Source of the DNA: Clostridiales bacterium
Lineage (GTDB): Bacteria > Bacillota > Clostridia > Peptostreptococcales > Acidaminobacteraceae
Reading direction: 5' to 3'
DNA length: 64,000 bases
Assembly: GCA_016342415.1 (NCBI GenBank)
Contig: JAEIOD010000002.1
Coordinates: 62,001-126,000, forward strand
The notes below the pieces were generated by a model. That model did no database searches, was not told where the DNA came from, and saw nothing but the letters and a program-made list of their open reading frames with translations. Shown here in pieces: positions 18,337 through 23,436 of this stretch. A program made the position numbers and the translations under genes. Each line of letters starts with the position of its first letter. Position 1 is the stretch's first letter.

Positions 18337-18349
18337 GCTAAGCCTATCC
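18331..18349. other. palindrome holding both convergent stop codons
   Basis: GGATAGGCT-A-AGCCTATCC is a perfect 9-bp inverted repeat. The plus gene ends GGA-TAG in its left arm and ilvB ends GGA-TAG in the right arm read from the minus strand. There is no T run, so termination would be inefficient unless other sequences help. Confidence 0.7.
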
Positions 18350-19975
18350 CAATACAAAATTACTAATAGATTGTCCTGGTGGTACAATGGGCAATACTTT
18401 TTCATCTTTATCGATGATACATTCTATTAGTAAAGGTTCACTTTTGTTTCGTTTATTAAGCACCTCTTCTAATTCTTCTATAGTAGAAACTTGATAAGAT
18501 TTTATACCATAAGCATGACCAAGTGCTACATAATTTACTTCATCATCTATACAAGTCTCAGCATATCGTTCCTCTTGGAACATGCCTTGCCACTGCCTAA
18601 CCATACCCAGTGCACTGTTATTAAATAAAACGACTGTTACTGGTAATTTATATTTAGAAATAGTAGCCAACTCATGACAATTCATTCTGAAGCTACCATC
18701 ACCGGTTACTAAAAGAGATGGTAAATTCCCAACTGAAACCCCTATCGCCGCACCTAATCCAAAGCCCATAGTGCCTAAACCCCCAGATGTAATGAAAGTT
18801 CTAGGCTTCTTAAATTTGAAATATTGTGCTGCCCACATTTGATGTTGTCCAACATCTGTTGAAAGAACAGAATCAGCAAAATATTCACTTAATGAATCAA
18901 AGATTTTTTTAGGATGAAATGCATTATATTTTTGATTCAATGGTTTGAATTGATGTATCGCAAATTTCCATTGATCACGTTTTTTAACACTCAATGCTCT
19001 TTCAATTTTCGTAAGTGTATCATTAAGGTGACCTAAAACAGTCACATCAGCTTTAATATTCTTACTAAATTCCGTTTTATCCACATCGATGTGTATGACT
19101 TGGCTAGATTTTGAAAACGTCTTTGTATTACCAGTTACTCGATCACTAAACCTTGCACCAATGGCAATGATCAAATCACTTCCTGCTATAGCCAAATTAG
19201 TTTCTGGAAAACCATGCATGCCAACTAATCCTAGAGACAGTTCATGAGTTCTTGGAAAAGTACCGAGACCCATCAAAGTGTTACAAACAGGGATATCATT
19301 CTTAACCGCTAACTTATAAAGCATCTCAGATGCCTCACCTAATTTAACACCGCCACCTGCATAAATCACAGGACGTTTTGCACTTTCTATGAGTTCAACA
19401 ACCGTCTTAATGTCATCAGATTTTGCATACTCATAACTTGCTTTTTCGAACAAGGAAGCATCTTGATAAACTGTTTCTTGCATGAAAATATCTTTTGGGA
19501 TATCGATAAGTACAGGACCCGGTCTACCACTCTTTGCAATATGAAAAGCATCATGAACAGCTTGTTCTAAATCTTCAACCTTCTTAATCAACATATTATG
19601 TTTTGTTATCTGAAAAGTAATACCTGTAATATCAATTTCTTGGAAAGCGTCTCTTCCAAGTAACGGACTAGGTACTTGCCCAGTTATAACAACAAGCGGT
19701 ACAGAATCCATGTAAGCAGTTGCAATACCCGTAATTGTATTGGTTGCCCCTGGACCTGAAGTCGCTATGCAAACACCTACTTTACCAGTTGCTCTTGCAT
19801 ACCCATCTGCCGCATGAACCGCTCCTTGTTCATGGGCTGTTCTATAGTGTTTGAATCCACCCATTCTATATAAAGCATCATACAAGGGAATCACAGCACC
19901 ACCCGGGTAGCCAAACAATGATTCTACACCCTGTTTTTTTAATGCTTTTAATAATATTTCAGCACCATTATTCAT
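18344..19975 (-). CDS. ilvB: acetolactate synthase large subunit
   Basis: TPP-dependent enzyme making 2-acetolactate or 2-aceto-2-hydroxybutyrate, the first common step of valine, leucine and isoleucine synthesis. 543 residues in the order TPP pyrimidine-binding domain (FGYPGGAVIPLYDAL, AHEQGAVHAADGYARATG), central FAD-type domain (GARFSDRVTG) and TPP-binding domain with GDGSFRMNCHELATI...NN. I place the start at ATG 19975, just after the ilvD stop; a TTG six codons earlier lies inside ilvD. GGGAG is about 11 bases upstream, a rather long spacing. Last gene of the ilv operon. Confidence 0.95.
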   Translation of the reverse strand: MNNGAEILLKALKKQGVESLFGYPGGAVIPLYDALYRMGGFKHYRTAHEQGAVHAADGYARATGKVGVCIATSGPGATNTITGIATAYMDSVPLVVITGQVPSPLLGRDAFQEIDITGITFQITKHNMLIKKVEDLEQAVHDAFHIAKSGRPGPVLIDIPKDIFMQETVYQDASLFEKASYEYAKSDDIKTVVELIESAKRPVIYAGGGVKLGEASEMLYKLAVKNDIPVCNTLMGLGTFPRTHELSLGLVGMHGFPETNLAIAGSDLIIAIGARFSDRVTGNTKTFSKSSQVIHIDVDKTEFSKNIKADVTVLGHLNDTLTKIERALSVKKRDQWKFAIHQFKPLNQKYNAFHPKKIFDSLSEYFADSVLSTDVGQHQMWAAQYFKFKKPRTFITSGGLGTMGFGLGAAIGVSVGNLPSLLVTGDGSFRMNCHELATISKYKLPVTVVLFNNSALGMVRQWQGMFQEERYAETCIDDEVNYVALGHAYGIKSYQVSTIEELEEVLNKRNKSEPLLIECIIDKDEKVLPIVPPGQSISNFVLG

Positions 19976-19977
19976 GA

Positions 19978-21639
19978 TTATCTCTTCTCCCAAATAGCTC
20001 CTTTAGCAGCCGAAGTAACACCTGAACGATACTTCTCCAGATAACCTGGATACTGCTTATGGATACGTTGATGATTTTCTTTTCTAACTTCTATAACCGT
20101 TTCATTAACATGTAACTCCAATCGACCTTCCGGTATGTCGATTTCAATTAAATCACCTTCTTCTACAAAAGCGATTAAACCACCTTCATAGGCTTCAGGT
20201 GATACATGACCAATTGCAGCACCTCTTGTACCACCTGAAAATCTTCCATCTGTAATCAAGGCTACAGAATCATCGAGTCCCATTCCATTAAGCGCAGCGG
20301 TTGGTGTTAACATTTCTTGCATACCAGGTCCGCCTTTTGGACCTTCATATCGTATGACAAGCACATCTCCTGCATTAATCTTACTATCAAATATCGCTGC
20401 CGCACAATCTTCTTCAGAATTAAAGACACGTGCCGGTCCTGACATTTTCATCATTTCTTTTAAAACTGCAGATTTTTTTACTACCGCGCCCTCTTTTGCA
20501 AGATTGCCATAAAGAACTTGAATGCCACCGGTTTCACTATATGGAAATTCCAAACTTCTAATAACTGATTGATCATAAACTTTAGCACTTTCTAGTTTAT
20601 CTTTTAAGATACCTTCTACTGTCATTACCTCTAAATCCAGCATCGGGCTTAAAGTCTTCAGAACACCACTGATACCACCAGCAGCATGCAAGTCTTCCAT
20701 ATGATGAGGTCCCGCAGGAGAAAGTCTACAAATATTAGGAGTCATCCGACTAACCTCATTGATTAAATCAAGATTCATTTTCACTTGTGCTTCATGAGCA
20801 ATTGCCGTTAAATGAAGTACTGTGTTTGTGGAACACCCCAGTGCCATATCAGATATCAAAGCATTTCTGAAGGCTTCTTTTGTTAATATGTCTCTAGGTT
20901 TGATATTATTTTCTAAAAGTGTCATCACCTGCATTCCAGCTTCTTTAGCCAGTCGCATTCTATCCATATGAACCGCTGGTACTGTACCATTTCCACTCAG
21001 ACCCAGTCCTAATACTTCTGTCATACAGTTCATGGAATTAGCAGTAAACATGCCAGAACAAGAGCCACAAGTAGGACAAGCATTGTTTTCAATATCCAAC
21101 AACTCTTCCTCGGTTATTTTACCTGCTTTAAAAGCACCAACACCTTCAAAAGCAGAGGTTAAATCTACTGGTCTCCCCTCTCTTGTATAACCTTTTAACA
21201 TGGGACCGCCACTGATAAATATGGATGGTACATTGACTCTAGCTGCTGCCATCAACATACCTGGTACTGTTTTATCACAGTTAGGAATAAACACAAGTGC
21301 ATCAAAGGCATGAGCTCGCGCCATTACTTCAACACTATCTGCAATCAATTCTCGACTCGTTAACGAGTATTTCATGCCTACATGGTTCATTGCGATACCA
21401 TCACAGACTGCAATTGTAGAAAACTCAAACGGTACACCACCAGCCATACGCACACCTGCTTTGACAGCATCACAGACTTGTCTTAAATGGACATGTCCTG
21501 GTACGATTTCATTAAAACTGTTCACCACACCAATAAAAGGTTTTTTAATTTCTGTATCGGTAAGCCCTAATGCTTTTAATAACGATCTGTGAGGCGATTT
21601 TTCCACACCTGATTTGATAGTATTACTTCTTAAATCCAC
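19978..21639 (-). CDS. ilvD: dihydroxy-acid dehydratase
   Basis: Iron-sulfur dehydratase forming 2-oxoisovalerate or 2-oxo-3-methylvalerate. 553 residues. The cluster region shows [12 protein letters not shown] and [18 protein letters not shown], and [11 protein letters not shown]-like [22 protein letters not shown] closes the domain. The start is a GTG at 21639 with AGAGGG eight bases upstream, overlapping the end of ilvC by ten bases. Clear family member in a biosynthetic operon. Confidence 0.95.
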
Positions 21640-22613
21640 GACATCATCCCTCTTAATTTTTGTCCTACTTCTACAATACCATGCGTTAACTCCTGTTGCT
21701 TAATCGCATTAAATTGTGGTCTGTTGATACGGTTTTCATTTAACCAATTCTTAGCAAACTCACCATTTTGAATTTCTGCTAATACAGCTTTCATTTCATC
21801 TCTTGTATTTTGATTGACTATACGTTTACCTACCATGTAATCACCATACTCAGCTGTATCACTTACGCTGTAACGCATTTTTTCAAAACCACCTTCATAT
21901 AATAAATCCACGATTAATTTCAGCTCATGTAAACATTCAAAGTAAGCAATTTCAGGTTGGTATCCTGCTTCTACAAGTGTATCAAAACCAGCTTTAATCA
22001 ACTCAGTTGCACCACCACAAAGTACTGCTTGTTCACCAAATAAATCAGTTTCTGTTTCTTCTTTGAATGTTGTTTCTATAACGCCCGCTCTAGCAGCACC
22101 GATACCCTTAGCATAAGCCAATCCTTTTTCTTTTGCCGTGTTTGTATAATCTTGATAAACAGCAAGTAGTGCCGGCACGCCTTTTCCTTCTTCGTAAACT
22201 CTTCTTACGAGATGTCCTGGTCCTTTAGGTGCTACCATGAACACATCAACGTTCTTAGGTGGATTGATTTGACCAAAGTGAATGTTAAATCCATGAGCAA
22301 ATACCAGTGCATCGCCATCGTCTAGATTCTCTTTTACCGATGCTTCATAAACTTCTCTTTGTGTTTCATCTGGAATCAGCATCATAACCACTTGTGATGA
22401 TTTAACAGCATCTGCTACAGATTTCACTTCTAAACCAGCTGCTTCAGCTTTCGCTTTAGACTTACTGCCTTCATAAAGTCCTACTACAACATCTACACCA
22501 CTCTCTTTTAAGTTTAAAGCATGCGCATGACCTTGAGAACCATAACCGATAACTGCTACTTGCTTTCCTGCTAATACATTTAGATCACTATCTTGCTCAT
22601 AATACATTTTCAT
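21630..22613 (-). CDS. ilvC: ketol-acid reductoisomerase
   Basis: NADPH-dependent isomeroreductase, second step of branched-chain amino acid synthesis. 327 residues, the short class I form. The N-terminus has the Rossmann motif [17 protein letters not shown]; the C-terminal knotted domain carries the metal-binding acids in [12 protein letters not shown] and the [17 protein letters not shown] helix. A lysine-rich nucleotide loop ([12 protein letters not shown]) suits NADPH. The start is preceded by GGAGG and lies one base after the ilvN stop. Confidence 0.96.
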
Positions 22614-22614
22614 T

Positions 22615-22854
22615 TTAACATTCCTCCATCAATACAATATCTCTTACGCCTACTATTTTTTCTAAATGAGCTACTGCTCTATTACAACTAAGTTCTGATG
22701 CATTCTCAAGTCTTATCTCCAAATGAGAACATGCATTAGGAGGTGATGTCATCTTCACATCACTGACCATAAATTCTTTCCTTCTCAATACACCAACAAC
22801 TTTTAGAAGTGTATCCACACCGTGATCCGCTTTTGCCTGTAAAAATCTTTCCAT
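22615..22854 (-). CDS. ilvN: acetolactate synthase small subunit (single ACT domain)
   Basis: A 79-residue protein with one ACT-like domain, from [22 protein letters not shown] to the [14 protein letters not shown] segment. This is as short as E. coli IlvM and much shorter than the 150-170 residue IlvH/IlvN, so the C-terminal domain is absent. It should bind IlvB and adjust activity or feedback inhibition. It is the first gene of the operon, with a strong AAGGAGG site, while its partner ilvB is last. The symbol ilvM would fit equally well. Confidence 0.85.
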
Positions 22855-23401
22855 CTTTTCCTCCTTTTGCTAAATTTGAATATAAAAAAAGACTCTTCCC
22901 TCTTTACGAACCATTATTCATAAAGACAAAAGAATCTTTTTATACCATTAGTTTCGCTCAGGTCGCAAGTTAATCTTGTTCAACCATATAGTCCTATATC
23001 GGGGACAACCGTTTCACCCTACTTATGTTCAGGCGAACTGCTCAGGAGCTACCATTGTATACTAATCTGTGTCAATTCTCACCAACCATTGACTCTCTAT
23101 AACAGATGTTTAGTATTTTTCTTCTCCATCAAAGCATTATCTATTAGGTCCGCTGTTTAGAGACGAATCTTAAATCCGCGGTACCACTCTAATTATACTC
23201 TCGTATCACTCTTTATCAGGTCGCAAGTAACTTGTTCAACCATATAGCCATTTAACGGTGGCAGGCGGCAACGTCTACATATCGACGTGCAGTTCAGGAG
23301 TGATTTAAGTAATAGTCTTCTTTATCATCTTTCAGCAAACGATGACTCTCTGCAAAATAGTTTCTACGACTTCTGTCTCCATCAATACTTTTGATTTATT
23401 A
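22855..23401 (-). promoter_or_regulatory. tandem T-box leader of the ilv operon
   Basis: The untranslated leader is about 546 nt from the predicted start near 23401. Two T-box-like units follow each other. Unit 1: AGAGAGTCATC (23341-23351), specifier ATC (23302-23304) before ACTCCTGA, and a perfect T-box core AGAGTGGTACCGCGG (23176-23190). Unit 2: AGAGAGTCAATGG (23086-23098), specifier GTA (23050-23052) before GCTCCTGAG, and a degenerate core TGGTAT (22942-22947). Both units share a hairpin with arms of GGTTGAACAAG and CTTGCGACC (23217-23247 and 22959-22991). The specifiers match tRNA-Ile and tRNA-Val. The pattern is that of transcription antitermination by uncharged tRNA. Presence of T-box control is confident; the exact specifier of unit 2 is less so. 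Confidence 0.88.
22884..22940 (-). terminator. regulated terminator of the T-box leader
   Basis: A long stem of about 23 pairs with some G-U (AAAGATTCTTTTGTCTTTAT with the strand beginning TTCGTAAAGAGG) around a TAATGG loop, followed by seven T on the minus strand, 30 bp before ilvN. It is the only clear terminator in the leader. Confidence 0.85.
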
Positions 23402-23407
23402 ATTGCA

Positions 23408-23436
23408 ATTATACATACGAACAAAATACATGTCAA
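23408..23436 (-). promoter_or_regulatory. promoter of the ilv operon
   Basis: Perfect consensus on the minus strand: -35 TTGACA (23431-23436), 17-bp spacer, -10 TATAAT (23408-23413). Transcription should begin near 23401. Confidence 0.92.

Follow-up and report, generated by a model that had tools for sequence, protein, structure and literature searches.

A composite T-box leader predicted to read isoleucine and valine tRNAs ahead of an ilv operon

The window, a stretch of 64,000 nucleotides from a member of the Clostridiales (genome G000), carries on its minus strand the operon ilvN-ilvC-ilvD-ilvB (18344..22854). Its genes are ilvN (22854-22615; 79 aa, a weak-scoring call that rests also on position and length), ilvC (22613-21630), ilvD (21639-19978) and ilvB (19993-18344). 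A sigma-70-type promoter on the same strand (23408..23436, TTGACA-17-TATAAT) matches the consensus at all 12 of 12 bases, and between it and ilvN lies a leader of ∼547 nt, to which all of the minus-strand features described below belong. The same leader is present in two congeneric genomes, G001 and G002, with 87% and 80% identity respectively; where three figures are given they refer to G000, G001 and G002, in that order.

The T-box covariance model (Rfam RF00230) matches the leader twice. Unit 1 (23394-23156), at 108.1 bits (E 6e-23), exceeds the gathering score of 93; unit 2 (23141-22971), at 82.2 bits (E 1.4e-18), falls below it. Despite the sub-gathering score, unit 2 aligns fully to the model from Stem I through IIA/B and has a Stem I with specifier, AGAGA/UGxRA T-loops, Stem II and IIA/B. 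The two sets of Stem I landmarks noted in the first-pass annotation are borne out, each with Stem II and IIA/B landmarks as well. In unit 1 they comprise Stem I (S1, 23288..23390) followed by Stem II and the IIA/B pseudoknot (23248..23287, with GCCA 23262-23259 facing UGGC 23250-23247); in unit 2 they comprise Stem I (S2, 23040..23136) followed by Stem II and a pseudoknot of GUCC with GGAC (22992..23039). The triplets earlier read as specifiers, AUC (Ile) in unit 1 (23304-23302, followed by A) and GUA (Val) in unit 2 (23052-23050, followed by G), occupy the same specifier column of the covariance model, and both are kept in the two congeners.

Read in that column, the specifiers of nine of ten other T-boxes in G000 fit the gene downstream, the ten genes having been named by reading their translations: leuS (CUC), alaS (GCA), trpS (UGG), proS (CCA), valS (GUA), ilvA (AUC), pheS (UUC), argS (CGU) and an aspS-like gene (GAC). 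By eye, the T-box of ileS (L015) also has AUC. Together the Rfam matches, this in-genome check of the column and conservation in three species make the predicted reading of Ile and Val in series ahead of ilvNCDB well supported. The lone misfit of the ten is AAC (Asn) ahead of aspS (L009:1743-1501, in the same genome), which may reflect sensing of tRNA-Asn or a shifted register. The genome as a whole makes heavy use of tRNA sensing, with 33 T-box matches. For valine it has one tRNA-Val(GAC) and a tRNA-Val(UAC) whose last four nucleotides are ACCA; none of its 45 tRNA matches is a tRNA-Ile, which is probably a gap in the assembly.

Downstream of their decoding domains the two units part company. 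In unit 1 the pseudoknot is followed by a hairpin, X1 (23216..23247; CUAUAUGGUUGAACAAG-loop-CUUGCGACCUGA), and then by a discriminator (23159..23215) identified by the Rfam alignment, conservation and compensatory changes. The discriminator consists of Stem III (AUAC 23206-23203 / GUAU 23198-23195) with flanking purines, a motif recognized by eye, and an antiterminator, AT1, with helices A1 and A2 and the UGGN bulge: AGAG (23190-23187), the bulge UGGUACC (23186-23180), helix A1 formed by GCGGA (23179-23175) and UUCGU (23167-23163), and CUCU (23162-23159). A U-run after this antiterminator is absent in all three species, and no terminator overlaps AT1; the alternative is a hairpin, H1, likewise lacking a U-run in the three species. 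A linker (23137..23158) then leads into unit 2.

Unit 2 runs from Stem I through Stem II and IIA/B to a second hairpin, X2 (22958..22991), and then directly to an intrinsic terminator, T2 (22941-22884), which is supported by its fold and by two compensatory changes. A Stem III, a conserved T-box bulge and an antiterminator were absent from unit 2 in three of three species, and the Rfam alignment deletes that region. The earlier proposal of two antiterminator-core regions thus fails for unit 2, while the placing of a single terminator after it (22884-22940) agrees with T2, the sole terminator of the leader. What had been described as two T-box units is better seen as two decoding domains, a single discriminator that belongs to unit 1 and a single terminator that follows unit 2; a complete tandem would have an antiterminator and a terminator in each unit, and here there is one of each. 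That Ile (AUC) and Val (GUA) decoding domains flank a single discriminator and are followed by the single terminator T2 is, as a prediction from sequence, well supported.

Two candidates for a less obvious second antiterminator were considered and rejected. A hidden one in unit 2 would use UGGU at 22947-22944, which is found only in G000 and is absent from both congeners. A hybrid in which the T-box sequence of unit 1 pairs with the 5′ arm of T2 would, on inspection, consist largely of G-U pairs in G000, and it is not preserved in G001 or G002.

All three species have the same two specifiers, the same AT1 and the same hairpin X, and they lack the same parts. Compensatory pairs are found in unit 1 in Stem II/IIA (two), in the pseudoknot (one) and in Stem III, and at five places in unit 2, of which four lie in Stem II/IIA and the other in Stem I, although with only three species there is little independent covariation. 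S2 is conserved at 82–94% and X2 at 91–97%; the least conserved modules include the linker that joins AT1 to unit 2 (45–73%) and the 16 nt before T2 (25–50%). The conservation and the compensatory pairs indicate that both decoding domains have been maintained by selection.

Hairpin X is a curiosity in its own right. The stem strands of its two copies (23247-23216 and 22991-22958) are unchanged between the units and among the three species, whereas elsewhere the units have diverged. As an exact pattern it occurs in two copies per genome and nowhere else in the genomes of 61 relatives; with just two copies per genome, a repeat or mobile element was rejected as an explanation. By eye, sister ilv leaders have related hairpins in the corresponding position. 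The two copies may touch each other or be bound by a common factor.

Orthologous leaders place this arrangement within a single genus. The AUC and GUA specifiers recur in the two congeners, as the first-pass annotation would have it, but a single T-box precedes the ilv operon in each of 22 further genomes from the family. The specifiers of the sister ilv leaders, read by eye, are AUC in 14 of 16 and CUC in 2 of 16. The two exceptions (L172 and L186, from two other genera) have a single T-box with CUC (Leu) rather than AUC, also by eye, so that there has been a switch, within the family, of the amino acid that is sensed. The best alignment of unit 2 is with unit 1 and the second-best with the ilvA T-box, which suggests that the T-box was duplicated in tandem and that the specifier of the second copy then changed from AUC to GUA. 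As reconstructed from the orthologues, a single Ile T-box in this genus would have been duplicated in tandem, after which the second specifier became GUA and the first terminator and second discriminator were lost. A pattern search of ∼1,150 genomes (overlapping samples of 394 from the order, 391 from the class and 398 from the phylum) found the junction of an antiterminator followed closely by a Stem I without an intervening terminator in this genus only, the pattern being a strict one that variants would escape; each of the other matches examined was either a T-box with a terminator or a sequence of an unrelated kind.

How might such a leader work? The first-pass annotation had proposed a series sensor of AND/OR type. 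An AND-type sensor would consist of two independent switches in series, for which complete tandem T-boxes in Bacillota (PMC12452182) offer precedent, as does an ilv leader from Clostridium whose two units are complete and both have CUC. It would require an unrecognized terminator in unit 1 and an unrecognized, diverged antiterminator in unit 2. Given that in three species the U-run is missing after unit 1 and Stem III, the UGGN bulge and the antiterminator are missing from unit 2, this reading is very improbable. The OR half of the earlier proposal fares better: we infer that OR logic, with one switch shared by two readers, fits the anatomy better than series AND logic.

According to PMC7583486, the discriminator is needed both for binding the 3′ end of the tRNA and for sensing aminoacylation. 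Unit 2, having no discriminator, can therefore be expected to decode but not, alone, to sense charge. From this it could be argued that only unit 1 senses charging and that unit 2 is a decaying duplicate, or holds tRNA-Val without regulatory effect. That reading is rather unlikely: unit 2 shows no less conservation than unit 1, on the figures given above for S2 and X2, and retains its specifier, AGAGAG/T-loop and pseudoknot together with its five compensatory pairs, and unit 1 would be left without a means of acting on T2.

The best explanation, which we hold with something short of even confidence, is that the leader is a composite T-box working as an OR gate with a linker relay. An uncharged tRNA, whether tRNA-Ile on unit 1 or tRNA-Val on unit 2, would dock its ACCA end in the single UGGU bulge and so stabilize AT1. 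Formation of AT1 would release the linker strand GCGGACC from the T-box sequence; the free linker would capture the emerging top of T2 (GGUUCGU), and the polymerase would read through. With both tRNAs charged, the linker would stay on the T-box sequence and T2 would form. The use of the same UGGU bulge by tRNA-Val on unit 2 is proposed because no other discriminator is present, and the ACCA end of tRNA-Val(UAC), which matches UGGU, counts in its favor. On the other side, a tRNA bound to unit 2 would have to reach a discriminator that lies 5′ of it, a geometry that the model presumes. More tentative is the full proposition that two tRNAs on separate domains compete for one acceptor-end sensor, and that a relay strand reaching to a distant terminator makes the leader an OR gate for Ile or Val starvation; we regard this as a possibility of modest weight.

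The evidence for the relay is complementarity in three species, which makes the linker a putative switch strand. Its motif (23153-23147) is GCGGACC in G000, CCGGACC in G001 and GCGGAUC in G002, and it is complementary in all three both to the T-box sequence and to the top of T2, most strongly in G002. Pairing with the T-box sequence GGUACCGC forms hairpin H1 and excludes AT1; 25, 8 and 73 of 1000 shuffles do as well. Pairing with the top of the 3′ arm of T2 (GGUUCGU, 22912-22906) is worth −10.8, −11.3 and −15.9 kcal/mol (equalled by 35, 34 and 0 of 2000 linker shuffles), or −10.8, −11.7 and −18.3 with a longer T2 window. The T2 top is the best downstream partner of the linker in all three species, falling to second in G000 when a longer linker is taken; with any downstream window allowed, the counts are 172, 77 and 0 of 300, significant in G002 only. 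Because several pairings were inspected before this one and the S1 pairing described below were chosen, the statistics of both are somewhat flattering. The full T2, at about −25 to −29 kcal/mol, is far stronger than the linker pairing, so that the relay could win only kinetically, while T2 is partly transcribed. The polarity of such a relay would be right: uncharged tRNA favors AT1, AT1 frees the linker, and the linker disturbs T2 to give readthrough.

A second coupling competes with this one. The 5′ arm of T2 (22936-22915) can pair with the 5′ strand of S1 (23388-23370), so that the state of S1 might decide that of T2 directly. The pairing is worth −18.0, −10.4 and −16.9 kcal/mol (1, 29 and 4 of 300 shuffles), a C-G pair has become A-U in G002, and in 40 ordinary T-boxes the same pairing is only at chance level. 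Measured against all upstream sequence, however, it is weak in G001 and G002 (123 and 42 of 300), and its polarity is wrong for a biosynthetic operon: S1 with tRNA bound would free the arm and favor termination. We consider this route distinctly unlikely. Pairing of the 3′ arm of T2 with upstream sequence was also tried and set aside; it reaches about −16 kcal/mol at the 3′ strand of the antiterminator in G000 and a weaker −12 to −13 in the other two species.

No strong link from AT1 to T2 is visible, and the alternative hairpin of AT1 has no U-run, both of which speak for unit 1 acting otherwise than on T2, for example through RNA processing, pausing or Rho. Positive evidence for such a route is lacking and the family's orthologues are T-boxes of the ordinary terminator type; we think it unlikely.

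The relay-linked OR gate, if true, would show how an operon with two end products can monitor both. The leader poses directly the question of whether one discriminator can serve two tRNAs from separate decoding domains. Its parts are divided with unusual clarity – two readers that differ in specificity, a single charge sensor and a single terminator, conserved in three species – and the starting point, an ordinary single Ile T-box, is still found in sister genera.

The ilv leader is a variant of the T-box and not a new class, and it may have been described before. It shares with the transcriptional T-box (RF00230) a Stem I with specifier, Stem II, IIA/B, Stem III, bulge, antiterminator and terminator, each present once or twice, but has two decoding domains for one discriminator and one terminator, the latter placed after the second domain. 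Tandem T-boxes (PMC12452182) likewise put two decoding domains in the leader of one branched-chain amino-acid operon; those units are complete, each with its own terminator, as in the Clostridium muellerianum ilv leader (L073), where CUC occurs twice, whereas the units here are incomplete and specify different amino acids. The ‘partially tandem’ T-boxes, whose modes of action are given as unknown in the review PMC7583486, are also incomplete tandems, a likeness in arrangement that makes no claim of identity. The two-codon T-box of Clostridium acetobutylicum also has one leader for two different tRNAs, and responds to those for Asn and Glu (Saad et al. 2013, as described in PMC4052509); there, two overlapping codons share one Stem I, while the ilv leader has two Stem I domains with one codon each. 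Adjacent aptamers of the glycine riboswitch (PMC12452182) resemble it in joining two sensors to one expression platform, although they bind the same small molecule twice and have no homology with the ilv leader. Finally, the T box(Leu)-ppGpp AND gate and other tandem riboswitches (PMC9481103) also bring two inputs to one operon leader, but through different ligand classes with their own aptamers, whereas in the ilv leader both inputs would be tRNAs that share one charge sensor.
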